The notes below the pieces were generated by a model. It had not been told where the DNA came from, made no database searches, and saw nothing but the letters and a program-made list of their open reading frames with translations. A stretch of DNA of 34,621 nucleotides from an uncultured Mycoplasmatota bacterium. Its GTDB lineage: Bacteria; Bacillota_I; Bacilli_A; RF39; UBA660. The position numbers were made by a program, and so were the translations under genes. The DNA is taken from assembly GCA_948329525.1 (NCBI GenBank), contig CAOJBM010000012.1:1-34621 (forward strand). Direction: 5' to 3'. Below, piece by piece: positions 15,540 through 26,756 of this stretch (positions are counted from its first letter, which is position 1; each line of letters begins with the position of its first letter).

Positions 15540-17666
15540 CTATTTTTGAAATTGCGAATTATAAAGTTCGGCATAGAATCCTTTTTCTTTCATTAACTCA
15601 TCATGTTTTCCTTGTTCAATTATATTTCCATCACTCATAACTAAGATTAAATCAGCATTTTTTATTGTTGACAAACGATGAGCTATAATAAATGATGTTT
15701 TTCCATGTGTTAATTTATCCATAGCTTTTTGAACTAATTCCTCTGTTCTTGTATCAACATTAGAAGTTGCTTCATCTAAGATTAAGAAAGGGGCGTCTTC
15801 AATCATTCCACGAGCAATTGTAATTAACTGCTTTTGCCCACTACTAATGGAATCATTATCATTTATTAAAGCATTAATACCATTTGGAAGTGTCTTAACA
15901 AAATGTTCTACTCCCACAGTTTCACAAGCTTGCCATATATCTTCTTCGGTTACATCATCTTTATTAAATTTAATGTTTTCAGAAACTGTTCCATCAAATA
16001 ACCATGTATCTTGTAAAACCATTACAAATAAATCATGGATATTTTCCCGAGTTAATTCGTTAATGGAAACACCATCAATTAAAATATCGCCCCCATTAAT
16101 TTCATAAAACTTCATTAATAAGTTAACCATCGTTGTTTTACCTGCTCCAGTTGGACCAACAATCGCAATCTTTTCTCCTGCTTTAATTTTAGCACTAAAG
16201 TTTTTAATAATAGTTTTATCTTCATTATAACCAAATTTAACGTTTTTAAACTCAATATTTCCTTTAACTTCATTTTTATCTAAGTATTTAGTAAAAGATT
16301 TTTCATTACTCATTTCTTTTTCATCTAAAAATTCAAATACTCTTTCGGATGCGGCAGCACAAGATTGTAATCCTGTCATTGATTGAGCAATTTGAGATAA
16401 AGGGCTTGTAAACATTCTAACATAAATCATAAATGCTACGATAACTCCAAAAGATATAATATTATTCATTGTTAAAAGTGCCCCTACTATACAAATGGCA
16501 ACATAACCAAAATTACCTACAAAACCCATAATTGGTTGCATAAGACCTGATAAAAATTGACTTTTACGATTACAATCATATAATTTTTTATTTAACTCAT
16601 CAAATTCTTCGGAAGCTTTTTTACTCCCATTATAAACCTTGACAATACTATGACCATCATATATTTCTTCAATATGAGCATTTAAATTTCCTAATTCTAC
16701 TTGCTTTTGATTAAAATATTTTTGAGATTTTGATAGAATTAAAGACATTAAAGAAAAACCTATTATCGTTGCTACAATAGCTGTTATTGCCATTATAGAG
16801 TTTGTTATAAACATCATAAATAGTGAACCTAGAAATAAAGTGACACTACTAACTAAAGATGATAAACTTTGATTTAAGTTCATTGCAACTGAATCAACAT
16901 CATTAGTTACTCTTGAGAGTATATCTCCCATTTCATGACTATCAAAGTATTTAAGTGGTAAAACATTTATCTTATTACTAATTCTTGTTCTTAAATTTCG
17001 AGCAAAATTATTTGATGCTGTACATAATAAATATCCTTCCAAATACTCGAATACTGCTCCTAAAACATTGATTATAATTAAGAAGATAACAATATCTTTA
17101 ATTAAAGAAGTATTAATTCTTGGTTTAACTAAATTATAAATATTTTTAGGTAAAGCATCAAATGTCTTTAAAAGAGCTTGTTCATCTTCCTTATTAACAT
17201 TACTTAGTAAATCTAATAACTCTTTTTGGTCTTTACTAGTTAAAGTGACATCATCTAAAACAAATTCATCTAATAGTTCTAATAATATATGCTCATCTAA
17301 AGACATAATATCATCTTTATTTTCACTAGTTAAAGCAATACTAAAGATTTGTTTTTCTTCTAAAGTAAAATTATCACTATTCATAATAATATTATAATTA
17401 GCACTTAATTTATTTTGGTCACTAAAATTACTTTCAACATTTTTTATAATAACTTCTAGTTTTTCCACATCAGGTCTTATCCCATCTGTAATAGTATCCG
17501 TTATTAAAGAAAGTTTATTAGGTGTTATTAAAGCAAGAATAGAACCTACTATAGCAAGAATAAGAGAAGAAAATAATAGTACATGCCATTTTTTCATTTC
17601 TTTAAAAAGTCTTTTAACTGCTCCTTTAAAGTCTTTAGATTTTTCATTTCTTCGTGGTCTAGGCAT
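15540..17666 (-). CDS. Heterodimeric ABC exporter, catalytic-site subunit with external insertion
   Basis: A 708-residue half-transporter (type IV exporter fold). An inserted region of about 125 residues (60-187; acidic, helical, predicted outside the cell) lies between membrane helices 1 (28-50) and 2 (189-212), much as in BmrD/YheH-type subunits. The nucleotide-binding domain has Walker A GPTGAGKT (504-511), Q-loop VLQDTW, Walker B with the catalytic Glu632 (LILDEATS) and H-loop His663. Its signature reads ISSGQ, not LSGGQ. It thus supplies the full catalytic Walker B/H-loop, while its altered signature faces the degenerate site of its partner. ATG 17666 is chosen for its AGGAGG SD; it overlaps the partner's stop by 8 bases. 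Likely a multidrug or lipid/peptide exporter. Confidence 0.93.
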   Translation of the reverse strand: MPRPRRNEKSKDFKGAVKRLFKEMKKWHVLLFSSLILAIVGSILALITPNKLSLITDTITDGIRPDVEKLEVIIKNVESNFSDQNKLSANYNIIMNSDNFTLEEKQIFSIALTSENKDDIMSLDEHILLELLDEFVLDDVTLTSKDQKELLDLLSNVNKEDEQALLKTFDALPKNIYNLVKPRINTSLIKDIVIFLIIINVLGAVFEYLEGYLLCTASNNFARNLRTRISNKINVLPLKYFDSHEMGDILSRVTNDVDSVAMNLNQSLSSLVSSVTLFLGSLFMMFITNSIMAITAIVATIIGFSLMSLILSKSQKYFNQKQVELGNLNAHIEEIYDGHSIVKVYNGSKKASEEFDELNKKLYDCNRKSQFLSGLMQPIMGFVGNFGYVAICIVGALLTMNNIISFGVIVAFMIYVRMFTSPLSQIAQSMTGLQSCAAASERVFEFLDEKEMSNEKSFTKYLDKNEVKGNIEFKNVKFGYNEDKTIIKNFSAKIKAGEKIAIVGPTGAGKTTMVNLLMKFYEINGGDILIDGVSINELTRENIHDLFVMVLQDTWLFDGTVSENIKFNKDDVTEEDIWQACETVGVEHFVKTLPNGINALINDNDSISSGQKQLITIARGMIEDAPFLILDEATSNVDTRTEELVQKAMDKLTHGKTSFIIAHRLSTIKNADLILVMSDGNIIEQGKHDELMKEKGFYAELYNSQFQK

Positions 17667-19410
17667 TATTAAGTTCCTCCTCTCCAAGTTGTGATAAAGC
17701 TATTTCTTTATAAACTTTACATTTTTTAAGTAGCTCTTTATGTGTTCCAATACCAACACATTTACCTTTATCTAAAACAATTATTTTATCCGCATTCATA
17801 ATTGTTCCAATTCGCTGAGCGACAATTAAACTTGTGGCATCTTTGGTATATTCTTTTAAATTCCTTCTTAAAGTGGCATCAGTTTTAAAATCAAGTGCTG
17901 AAAACGAATCATCAAAGATATATATTTCAGGGTCTTTAGCAATAGCTCTTGCAATATTTAATCTTTGTTTTTGTCCTCCAGAGACATTAGTTCCACCTCT
18001 TGCGATTAAAGAATCATATTTTTTATCCATCTTTGTTACAAAATCAGTACCTTCTGCTACATCTATAGCTTTTTTTACTTGTTCTAAACTAATTTCTTTA
18101 TTTCCATATGAAACATTTTCATAAACTGTTTTAGAAAACATAAAAGCTTTTTGCGAAACGTATCCTAATTTATCATTCAAAGTTTCTATTTTGTAATCTT
18201 TGACATTAACACCATCAATTAAGATTTCGCCATCTGTTACATCATAAAATCTTGGCACCAGATTTATTAATGTTGATTTACCGCTACCCGTTGAACCGAT
18301 AAAAGCTACTGTTTCTCCTTTATTAACTTTAAAAGTTATATCTTTTAATATATATTCATCGGCATCAGGGTATTTGAAAGATACATCCTTAAATTCAATT
18401 GTTCCTCTCTCTTTAGTTTGACCATCAAAAGTACCATCTTTTATAGAAGATTCTTCATCTAACACTTCATTAATTCTTTTAGCAGATATTTGGGTTCTTG
18501 GCCACATCATAAAAATCATTGCTAGCATTAAGAAAGACATTATTACTTGCATACCATAACTAGTAAAAACAACCATATTACTAAATAATGTAATTTTTTC
18601 ACTCATTAAAGCATTTTCAATCAAAATAGTACCTATAATATAAATACCAATCGTTAATCCATGCATTACTAAATTCATCATTGGTCCTAGAACAGAAAAA
18701 CATCTTTGATTAAATAGTTGTGTATTAGTTAACTCATTATTAACATTCTCAAATCTACTCTCTTGAAATTTTTCAGCATTAAAAGCTCGTATTACTCTAA
18801 TACCAGTTAAGTTTTCTTTAGTTACACCATTAACTTTATCAATTAACTTTTGAACTAGTTCAAATCTTGGCAATACTATAGCCATTAAAATGCCAACTGT
18901 TAATAAAAGAGCTATAACACAACCAAATACTAAAATACTCCATTCAAAATTCTTATTTAGAATTTTAGAAACAGCCCATATAGCCATTATTGGAGCTTTA
19001 ATCAAAGCTTGTAAGCCCATAGAAATAAACATTTCAATTGTTGTAACATCATTAGTTGTCCTAGTAATTAAACTACTTGTTTTAAAGTTCTTAATTTCTG
19101 CTGTACTAAAACTATCTACTTTTTCAAAAATCTTTTTTCTAATAATCATCGAAAAAGATGAAGATAGCTTAGTAGCAACATAACCAACTATAATAGCAGT
19201 TAGTAAACTACCAAAGGCACAAAGAAGCATAAAACCTCCTTGTTGTAGAATTTCACTCATTTTACTTCCTTCGCTTTGGACAAGAACTGTTATTTCACTC
19301 ATATAATCAGGTAACTTAAGTTCAAGCCATACTTGAAATAATATGAAAGCAAAACAAATAAGAATTGCTATAATATCTTTTTTTGTAAAATTTTTAAATA
19401 ACTTAGTCAT
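17659..19410 (-). CDS. Heterodimeric ABC exporter, degenerate-site subunit
   Basis: A 583-residue half-transporter with six membrane helices (about 12-310) and an ATPase domain. Walker A is GSTGSGKST (372-380) and the signature is canonical VSGGQ (476-480). The Walker B end reads FDDSFSALD, with Asp501 in place of the catalytic Glu, and the H-loop reads VAQR, with Gln532 in place of His. These two changes are the marks of the non-hydrolysing site in TM287/288- and BmrCD-like heterodimers. It is translated first (SD AGGAGG) and overlaps the larger partner gene. Expression starts from a strong promoter next to a large dyad (19447-19505). Confidence 0.94.
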   Translation of the reverse strand: MTKLFKNFTKKDIIAILICFAFILFQVWLELKLPDYMSEITVLVQSEGSKMSEILQQGGFMLLCAFGSLLTAIIVGYVATKLSSSFSMIIRKKIFEKVDSFSTAEIKNFKTSSLITRTTNDVTTIEMFISMGLQALIKAPIMAIWAVSKILNKNFEWSILVFGCVIALLLTVGILMAIVLPRFELVQKLIDKVNGVTKENLTGIRVIRAFNAEKFQESRFENVNNELTNTQLFNQRCFSVLGPMMNLVMHGLTIGIYIIGTILIENALMSEKITLFSNMVVFTSYGMQVIMSFLMLAMIFMMWPRTQISAKRINEVLDEESSIKDGTFDGQTKERGTIEFKDVSFKYPDADEYILKDITFKVNKGETVAFIGSTGSGKSTLINLVPRFYDVTDGEILIDGVNVKDYKIETLNDKLGYVSQKAFMFSKTVYENVSYGNKEISLEQVKKAIDVAEGTDFVTKMDKKYDSLIARGGTNVSGGQKQRLNIARAIAKDPEIYIFDDSFSALDFKTDATLRRNLKEYTKDATSLIVAQRIGTIMNADKIIVLDKGKCVGIGTHKELLKKCKVYKEIALSQLGEEELNNA

Positions 19411-19534: not shown

Positions 19535-20150
19535 TTATTTTAAGCTATATGGGGAAGAACTTGTTCACGATCCACAGGATATTTCACAAGATGAACCAAA
19601 AGTTACTAAAGGACGAATAAACGCACCAACGTCCAAAGATGAAGCACACGAGGCAAATAGTGCAGTCTCATTCAACCTAACTCTACCATAGTAGGTAGAC
19701 AAAGCACCGCTAAAATTCACTTCGGTTCTCAAACTTGAAGAAATCATAGAAAAACTTTTCTCTGCCCCTGTACACTGGTATGTATAAAGTGCAGTTATCC
19801 CACCATTGGTAGAACTATTAGGAATCAACAAATACCTTAAATCTTTCCAATTCACGCCACCAGAAAGGAAATATCTCGTGTTTTCACCATCGGGACTAAC
19901 AATTTCCATAGTTCCTATCGCACTATTTATAAGTTGTTCATCTATAGAACTATAAGTTTGTGATGGACAATTTTTGGTATTATAATTTGTACAATTTTCA
20001 TTTTGTGTATCATATCCTGTATGTCTTGAATTAACTATATATTTGGAATTTGTATATTGGCTAGCAATACTATTTAACGTATTAACTAAATTTATACCCA
20101 GTCTTTCCACTAAAATAATAGTCTCATTAGAAATAAACGTGCCAATTTCC
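19535..20150 (-). pseudogene. C-terminal fragment of a surface protein, paralogue of the 21000-22223 gene
   Basis: From about 20146 down, the frame reads like the second domain of the 21000-22223 protein. NLVNTLNSIASQYTNSKYIV matches NLVGTLNAIASQYGNTSYV, and GAFIRPLVTF matches IKIRPILTL. The N-terminal anchor and the whole first domain are missing; the frame is instead continuous with the tail of an Rpn-family gene (20150-20400). A TGA at 19565-19567 ends the frame, but the following codons (TSSSPYSLK, stop at 19535) give the C-terminus expected in this family, so the TGA is probably a GGA to TGA nonsense change. Eight Cys remain. I see no start of its own; the ATG at 20161 lies in the Rpn part. 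Confidence 0.7.
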
Positions 20151-20400
20151 ATCTCCTTCATTAGTCTATCTAACTTACTTACATCTTTTTCTATTAAGCC
20201 ATAGATATATTTTTCTACTTCATCTAAGCCTTCAATACCTAGATTATAGCATTTTTTAGTAAATTGGGAATATAGATATTAATAATCATGATAGCATCTG
20301 TTAGGACTATTCCTTCTTCATCTTTGATGTAATTTATATAATAAGTTTCATCTTTTCCAAGAAAAGTAAAATTATTGAAATTAATTAAGATACTTTGAAT
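20150..20400 (-). pseudogene. C-terminal half of a broken Rpn-family PD-(D/E)XK nuclease gene
   Basis: The minus strand reads SILINFNNFTFLGKDETYY, then INYIKDEEGIVLTDAIMIIN and IYIPNLLK, the middle-to-late part of Rpn/PDDEXK transposase-like nucleases. At an A6 run (complement of 20252-20257) the frame shifts by one base and continues CYNLGIEGLDEVEKYIYGLI EKDVSKLDRLMKEM, the helical tail of the same family. The tail then runs without a stop into the surface-protein fragment. The N-terminal half is not upstream on this strand; it lies on the plus strand from 20399. Confidence 0.65.
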
Positions 20401-20866
20401 GAAAATGACCAAAAATGATGTATTTCCTTCTTTAAAAGAAAGAAGAAATGAGATTACTACTTTATATTCCCTACCTCCTAGAAGTGATAATATTTGGATC
20501 CTTAAACCACGTAATCAAATTGATAAAATATCCATTGTTAGTGATAATATGTTTCACACAATATTTAATCACCCTAAAGGTAAAAAATATATTGCTTATT
20601 TAATATCTTTATTTTTAAAAATTGATAATGATACTTTATTAAAACATATGAAAATAATAAGTAATGATGTTTTAAAAAATAAAGTTAGTAATGTTTCCCA
20701 AAGATGTGACCTTGTTTGTGAAATAAATGAAACTATTATTACAGTAAAAATGAACAATAATTCTAGTATCGAAGTATTACATCGTAATAACAGGCAATTT
20801 AGTGCAATGGTCAAAAAAAGTAAAAATTATGATAAATATCGTCACCTCAATTTTATTTCAAATTAA
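20399..20866 (+). pseudogene. N-terminal half of the Rpn-family nuclease gene, inverted
   Basis: A 155-codon open frame. MFHTIFNHPKGKKYIAYLIS followed by RCDLVCEINETIITVKMNNN matches the N-terminal PD-(D/E)XK core of Rpn-like proteins (recombination-promoting nuclease, transposase_31-like). The active-site Asp is present (CDLV), but the E-x-N/Q motif reads K-M-N, so the core is probably dead. The frame stops at SKNYDKYRHLNFISN, exactly where the opposite-strand fragment 20150-20400 takes over (INFNNF). There is no SD before the ATG. Inverting about 20394-20862 would rejoin both halves on the minus strand. Near-matching inverted 13-mers (20394-20406 and 20850-20862) flank the segment. Confidence 0.65.
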
Positions 20867-20910
20867 AAGAGTAAGTCATTTACCTTTTCAACTTTATGTT
20901 AATCTTCTAT

Positions 20911-20940
20911 TTCTTCTTTTTTTCATAAAATTTCTTTTAA
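20911..20940. repeat. Short intergenic element, also at 49-80 and (weaker) 13165-13194
   Basis: The 22 bases at 20916-20937 differ in one base from 56-77 (C-T7-C-A/G-T-A4-TTTCTTT). A less exact copy lies at 13165-13194, sharing AAATTTCTTT. All three are intergenic. Low complexity makes this uncertain. Confidence 0.3.
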
Positions 20941-20999: not shown

Positions 21000-22223
21000 C
21001 TATTCGAAAGTATACGCCGTAGCCGAACTAGCTCCATCACCACTAGCAATTTTTAAATTTGATTTTAAAGTAAGTATTGGTCTAATTTTTATAGCATTAC
21101 TATAAGAAGCACCATCGCCTGTAATTTGTTCATCACTTACTACACCTGTAGCATTAATAAAGCGTCCATTTTGAGTATTTTCGTTTGTATTACGAGAAGC
21201 AATCCAATAAGCATCTGCTACACCATTCGAATCATTTCCTATTAAACTTCCTAAAGCGGTACTTACTAAATTAACATCTGTTTCATACCCTGTATCAGCC
21301 AAACAAGCATCTATACTTTCGCATACTTCTGTCTGATTACTAAATCCCATAGATCTTGTGCTACTTACATAAGAAGTATTTCCATATTGTGAAGCTATAG
21401 CGTTTAAAGTCCCTACTAAATTTAAGTAACCTGTTTCTCCTTTAAAATATATTTCATTAGTTGAGACATTTTCTGAGATTACATCTACTGTTCCATTATC
21501 ATTTTTCTTTATTACTCGCCATAAATTTAATTCACTTGGATTGATTGTTTGATCAGTATCATTACCTGTTACACTACTAGCTACTGTGTAACTTGTACTT
21601 GTTGGTGTCATACTTATATAATCTCCAACTTTTAAAGTACTTATCGTCTTTGTAGTAGCCAACTCTGAATTAATAACTATTTTTGATTCAAACCTTTTAT
21701 TTTGTTCAGTACTTGGAGCATCTTTATCTATCCATAATCTTAAATTATAAGTTTTACTTTCTCCTTTAGCAAGTACGCCACTAGTCAAAATTCTTGATTC
21801 TACAGAATCAGGAAAATACTTATCTGTAGTAGTATATGAAGAATATAGTTTATAATTATCTTCTAAAGCTACTTTAATACTACTATTTGAAAGTGTTGAA
21901 GCTGCTAAAGATTCTAAATTTACAGTATATGATGTTTTATAATCACAAATATTTTCTATTGTAAATGTAAAAGGTAGCGTTTGCATTCCATCATCATCTG
22001 ATAATGGATAAGACTCAGGTAAATCAATGGCATTTTTACCACTAAGACTTATATCAAAGCATTTAGTTGCTATGACATTTGGATTTTCTTGCGTTTTAGT
22101 TTTTTGCCAAAAGGCATAACTTACTCCTACTACAAGCATTATTCCTACAGTACAAATAATTGATAATATTAGCGTTTTTTTCTTTTTTTGCAATTGTTCT
22201 TCATTTATATGTTCTTCATTCAT
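21000..22223 (-). CDS. Membrane-anchored or secreted surface protein, TasA/CalY-like N-terminus
   Basis: A 407-residue protein. A Lys-rich cytoplasmic start (QKKKK, 12-16) and one hydrophobic segment (17-38) are followed by VSYAFWQKT and a beta-rich, Thr/Ser-rich body. The segment ending SYAFW and the beta strands after it (residues about 50-190, one Cys pair near 55 and 92) recall TasA/camelysin-type proteins exported with a SipW-like peptidase. That link is by style, not a firm match. A second domain (about 225-400) starts GDYISMTPTSTSYTV, includes LWRVIKKNDNGTVDVISENV and GTLNAIASQYGNTSYVSS, and ends IRPILTLKS ... SATAYTFE. A decayed paralogue of this domain lies at 19535-20150. SD AGGGAGG and a promoter with perfect -35 and -10. 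Probably displayed on the cell surface. Confidence 0.75.
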   Translation of the reverse strand: MNEEHINEEQLQKKKKTLILSIICTVGIMLVVGVSYAFWQKTKTQENPNVIATKCFDISLSGKNAIDLPESYPLSDDDGMQTLPFTFTIENICDYKTSYTVNLESLAASTLSNSSIKVALEDNYKLYSSYTTTDKYFPDSVESRILTSGVLAKGESKTYNLRLWIDKDAPSTEQNKRFESKIVINSELATTKTISTLKVGDYISMTPTSTSYTVASSVTGNDTDQTINPSELNLWRVIKKNDNGTVDVISENVSTNEIYFKGETGYLNLVGTLNAIASQYGNTSYVSSTRSMGFSNQTEVCESIDACLADTGYETDVNLVSTALGSLIGNDSNGVADAYWIASRNTNENTQNGRFINATGVVSDEQITGDGASYSNAIKIRPILTLKSNLKIASGDGASSATAYTFE

Positions 22224-26147: not shown

Positions 26148-26756
26148 ATGTCAAAGATAAGAAAAAATATAAGATTAAAAGGAACAAGGTTAAAAAATAT
26201 GCCTAGAGCATCAAAACATCGTTGTTCTAAAGGCGGTTCAAAAAGAGGAATAAGTGATCATCAAGTATGTATAGCATCAGCAATCGATAGATATGATAAT
26301 TGTTTTTTAGTAATTGTAGTAACAGGACAAATTACATCAAGTGAAGTAGAAGCAGTCTTTAAAGATAAAGTAGAAAAAGTTTCTAAATTTATTACTGATT
26401 GTAAATCTTCATATAAAAAATTTGCCAAAGATAATCATATAAAATTAGAACAATCAAGAACTTATACTAATGCAAATGGATATAGTTTAGGAAATATAAA
26501 TTCATTACATTCAGAATGGTCAACTTTTTTAAGTATCTTTAAAGGAGTATCAACAAAACATTTACAACATTATTTAGATTGGTTTAGTTTTCAAAAATTA
26601 ATAAATTATATAGTAGAAATATTAAAGCAACCTATGACCATTATGAAAAATACTACCATAAGATATAGTAATATTAAATATTGTAATGTTTATGACAATT
26701 CATCAGGAATCGATTTTTCTCTTGTTTGTGATGATTATAATTTTCATCCTCTATAA
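26148..26756 (+). mobile_element. 5'-truncated IS1595-family (ISXO2-like) transposase
   Basis: A 202-codon frame. KNMPRASKHRCSKGGSKRG then ISDHQVCIASAIDRYDN matches the domain of IS1595/ISXO2-like transposases just after the first catalytic Asp. ITDCKSSYKKFAKDNHIKLE carries the second Asp, and VSTKHLQHYLDWFSFQKLI is the C-terminal signature. The zinc-ribbon/N-terminal part and the first Asp are missing, so it is non-functional. The frame is otherwise intact. Terminal repeats were not identified on either side. Confidence 0.75.

Follow-up and report, generated by a model that had tools for sequence, protein, structure and literature searches.

Two head-to-head pieces of one Rpn gene

The window (the whole stretch of DNA that was analysed, 34,621 nucleotides) is contig C12 of G000, a 1.79 Mb draft assembly of 121 contigs. 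It contains two head-to-head pieces: a plus-strand open reading frame (ORF) at 20399-20866 (P0001, 155 aa) and a minus-strand piece running downward from about 20400. Pfam and NCBIfam scans of each window piece alone matched no model, and the family identity was therefore taken from intact relatives in G000. There, 12 places were recovered by a protein search, including intact genes on contigs C5 (334-codon frame) and C54 (377-codon frame). Three intact paralogs (P0002, P0003 and P0004) exceed the cut-off of TIGR01784 (Rpn family recombination-promoting nuclease / putative transposase). P0002 matches this model at 5.4e-18 and is also above the cut-off for PF12784 (5.3e-10).

Residues 3-149 of P0001 aligned with residues 1-151 of P0002 at 59% amino acid identity, and the minus-strand piece aligned with residues 149-200 at 77%. 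This means that the pieces are adjoining parts of one gene. A preliminary description of the locus had proposed just that, one Rpn gene in two opposite-strand halves, and had suggested an alignment with Rpn proteins; both halves fit the same P0002, and an unflipped DNA copy on contig C11 agrees. Taken together, the pieces match intact Rpn / PDDEXK_2 members (TIGR01784, PF12784) along their whole length, so that the locus belongs to the family as a pseudogene.

The extent of the two halves had to be revised. The plus-strand ORF does hold the N-terminal nuclease core, but its end at 20866 is not that of the gene: the tail after His149 is leader sequence read in a false frame. Likewise, the minus-strand fragment, placed earlier at 20150-20400, is indeed the C-terminal half, but it is frameshifted after residue 200 and its Rpn homology reaches 20143. 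The features are listed in Table 1.

Table 1. Features of the Rpn locus and its left neighbour (window coordinates).
Feature	Position	Strand	Basis or remark
Segment in inverted orientation: start codon and N-terminal PD-(D/E)XK nuclease half	20399..20844	+	98.4% DNA identity to C14, 96.6-100% to C11, 59% aa identity to P0002 1-151
C-terminal half of the pseudogene, in its original place, truncated at 20143	20143..20398	-	98.8% DNA identity to L015 1638-1893; 77% aa identity to P0002 149-200
Rpn 5' leader, in its original place; in C11 and C14 it stands ahead of the ATG	20845..20923	-	84-85% to the C11/C14 leaders, 9-bp indel included
Tail of the plus-strand ORF (LNFISN stop), leader sequence read in a false frame	20845..20866	+	outside the flipped block
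Left 13-mer, across the junction made by the inversion	20394..20406	.	5 bp of C-half and 8 bp of flipped block
Right 13-mer, within the leader	20850..20862	.	5 bp outside the breakpoint
Repeated surface-type gene, remnant (pilin-like by inspection)	19565..20142	-	fused in frame to the Rpn stump 20143-20161

Like the Rpn genes described previously (PMC5350276, PMC10327210), the Rpn copies in G000 are multicopy, scattered and C-terminally variable. Unlike intact members of the family (TIGR01784, PF12784), the window copy is inverted inside, frameshifted, truncated and changed in its catalytic motif.

Sister copies are not inverted

A DNA search of G000 recovered a sister copy on C11 (locus L015) whose N- and C-halves are 96.6-100% identical at the DNA level. 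On C11, the leader (20923-20845, reversed), the N-half (20399-20844) and the C-half (20398-20143, reversed) follow one another on one strand with no gap, the leader lying just upstream of the ATG. Window positions 20399-20844 match L015 1323-1640 on the plus strand, the N-half on C11 having a 127-bp internal deletion, while, from the opposite window strand, positions 20398-20143 match L015 1638-1893 (98.8%). The N-half on C14 (98.4%) is preceded by the leader and followed by the opening bases of the C-half, and is thus unflipped. In the copies on C5, C26 and C54 of G000 the N-half is also followed by the C-half on one strand. The same holds for the copies on contigs C3, C5 and C9 of the congener G001, a metagenome-assembled genome named uncultured Erysipelotrichaceae bacterium.

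Since all the other copies that span the junction read N-half then C-half on one strand, the C12 arrangement is the derived state. The alignments indicate that a 446-bp block (20399-20844) flipped inside one Rpn gene, with the C-half and the leader staying in place. The earlier proposal of a flip of about 460 bases within the gene therefore stands as regards the inversion, but the right end lies at 20844 and not around 20862-20866.

Among 58 genomes of the family, whose hits were read by eye, no second Rpn locus with adjoining opposite-strand pieces was seen, and none of the contigs in G000 holds the C12 locus unflipped. At the orthologous locus, the G001 contig stops inside the surface-gene repeat, short of the Rpn position. 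The inversion call comes from one draft assembly.

The gene is broken irrespective of the flip

The window copy carries several lesions besides the inversion. In the minus-strand piece, a run of seven A is shortened to six near 20246-20251, which causes a frameshift with a stop after residue 200; the six-A run is common to C12 and C11, while the other copies compared have seven. A 12-bp deletion (4 codons) at 'HRN....NRQF' is also found in the C11 and C14 sequences. The Glu of the catalytic motif is replaced by Lys (TVKMNNN versus IEMNNN in the paralogs), so that the conserved acidic residue is missing; both C14 and C11 retain 'GGAAATG' at this position. Finally, the Rpn homology ends at 20143, where it runs into the remnant of the neighbouring repeated gene. 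With the inverted block, the frameshift and the truncation, there is no full-length reading frame, and the gene is dead irrespective of the flip. Given the frameshift, the 12-bp deletion, the Glu-to-Lys change and the truncation, flipping the block back would not yield a working gene.

The lesions common to C12 and C11 suggest a common ancestor that was itself already defective, but these lesions could also have been passed from copy to copy by exchange.

Exchange and decay among Rpn copies

Over its first 200 bases, the N-half shows no difference between C11, C12 and C14 (0/201 substitutions). The C12 leader, in turn, differs from that of C11 by 4 substitutions in about 80 positions and by a 9-bp indel (Fisher p = 0.006 against 0/201 in the N-half). 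This is suggestive, but not proof, of the flipped block having continued to exchange sequence with other copies after the flip, which would be possible within the block only. Such exchange may have blurred the history of the locus.

In G001, positions 1090-1814 of locus L070 (C5) and 695-1419 of L071 (C3) are 99.4% identical over 725 bp and have the same internal deletion. These two copies occupy places orthologous to those of the G000 copies on C26 and C5, which have diverged. The comparison points directly to ectopic gene conversion between broken Rpn copies in this congener.

In locus L018 (C57 of G000) and at L015 1523 (C11), internal deletions were observed whose joints share short homology or none. 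They imply that the Rpn family has decayed by illegitimate joins more than once. Pieces of Rpn genes, mostly the C-terminal tail, were also found at contig ends (C14, C26, C33, C67 and C101 of G000, and several contigs of G042). Such contig-end tails are seen in many drafts of the family, as if the tail were repeated in many near-identical copies on which assemblies break.

Junctions and the inverted 13-mers

In the C11 copy, the leader/N-half junction reads 'ATCGAGGCGATGAAAATG' and the N-half/C-half junction 'AAATATCGTCAAAGTATC'. They can be split as ATCGAGG-CG-ATGAAAATG and AAATATCG-TCA-AAGTATC, respectively. The C12 junctions are ATTGAGG/TGACGATATTT and CATTTTCAT/TCAAAGTATC (slashes mark the joins). 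Relative to C11, C12 has lost CG (2 bp) and has TCA on both sides (3 bp duplicated), so that the junctions are not conservative. In inverted orientation, the ancestral breakpoints have only CGAT/ATCG in common (about 4 bp). Inverted repeats are absent from the breakpoints; between the two ancestral breakpoint regions no exact inverted match exceeds 7 bp, and the 7-bp match lies away from the breakpoints themselves.

The 2-bp loss, the 3-bp duplication and the sharing of only about 4 bp favour end-joining or template switching over a site-specific recombinase. We infer that an illegitimate event of this kind fits the junctions better, the basis being one junction pair compared with a sister copy and not with the direct ancestor; the loss of CG could predate the flip. 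The literature searched for inversions by template switching in bacterial pseudogenes offered nothing specific.

A pair of inverted 13-mers (20394-20406 and 20850-20862) had been pointed out near the ends of the block. Their match in 11 of 13 positions was confirmed, but they do not qualify as switch sites: the left one straddles the junction made by the inversion, the right one lies outside the block, and when the same geometry was placed at random 300 times, 15 placements (about 5%) gave at least one pair of equal quality. As the left 13-mer is composed of C-half and flipped-block sequence, it was absent before the flip and cannot have mediated it.

A probable one-time inversion in a dead gene

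The reading that we favour, with a probability of roughly 0.88, is that the locus is a dead gene of the multicopy Rpn family (PDDEXK_2 / TIGR01784) that once lay on the minus strand and underwent a one-time 446-bp inversion by illegitimate repair. The block would have had its two ends directly ahead of the ATG and at codon 151. A single flip, by end-joining of two breaks or by template switching, would have left the plus-strand ORF with its old ATG but without its leader. The locus is most likely functionless now. This is in line with one of the two options offered in the preliminary description, a one-time event in a dying gene, which the paralog alignments support. The event would be ordinary pseudogene decay, a one-off scar and not a working switch. 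It does not differ in any essential way from the small rearrangements generally known from bacterial pseudogenes: a single-copy inversion with small junction indels, beside other lesions and deletions.

It is improbable that two Rpn pseudogenes came to lie head to head by chance, or that a reversed N-terminal fragment was inserted from another copy. G000 does hold many broken Rpn copies, and the N-half and the leader diverge differently from the sister copies. Yet the two pieces complement each other exactly (residues 1-151, and 152 onward), a single sister copy matches both of them and the leader is still in place; an insertion would moreover need a precise loss of the original N-half.

Another conceivable source of the rearrangements is the family itself. 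In E. coli, overproduction of Rpn raises RecA-independent recombination, and the RpnA protein acts in vitro as a DNA endonuclease (PMC5350276). The Rpn nucleases of G000 might cut and rearrange Rpn copies, the inversion, deletions and homogenisation being traces of RecA-independent recombination acting on their own family; we give this idea little chance.

The other option of the preliminary description, the remains of an invertible switch, did not hold up. Intragenic invertons occur in gut bacteria, and a short intragenic segment is inverted here as well, with 11/13-matching 13-mers near both ends. A reversible inverton would have a recombinase flip the N-half in and out of frame with the C-half, and the genome does contain 14 serine and 7 tyrosine recombinase matches. 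These all lie elsewhere in G000, however, and none is on C12. One of the 13-mers is a product of the flip, the junctions are non-conservative, the breakpoints lack inverted repeats and the gene is intact in neither orientation, which makes a switch very improbable. Workflows for finding invertons in gut communities start from flanking inverted repeats, a feature that this locus lacks, and tally the reads for each orientation (PMC11892184).

An assembly artefact, that is, a contig misjoined between repeated Rpn copies, might be suspected in a draft of 121 contigs in which C14 ends about 10 bases from its own N/C junction, but it is highly unlikely: a misjoin needs a common k-mer and the breakpoint regions share no inverted match above 7 bp, two reciprocal junctions would both have to be false, and the leader has variants of its own (the 9-bp indel), so that it is not the C11 or C14 copy.

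The inversion presents a clean case of a small inversion without inverted repeats. It is also a caution that opposite-strand ORFs resembling a gene pair or an invertible switch can be one broken gene. The E. coli Rpn genes are toxin-antitoxin genes in phage defence, without signs of autonomous transposition (PMC10327210). The family is known for promoting RecA-independent recombination and for its toxicity to the host, and broken copies are plausibly tolerated or favoured in it.

Neighbouring sequence

The surface-type gene remnant at 19565-20142 shares 38% amino acid identity over 63 residues with a 407-aa ORF at 21000-22223. The Rpn locus lies between this ORF and an ABC transporter gene at 17659-19410. 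In the congener G001, such a surface-type gene occupies the same position next to that ABC transporter gene (92% DNA identity), and more than 15 related places were noted in that genome. On C12, an ISXO2-like (DDE_Tnp_IS1595) transposase gene is present at 26148-26756, not adjoining the inversion. The ORF at 19565-20161 is a chimera: the Rpn stump supplies the start codon and the initial residues, and the surface-type gene remnant the rest.
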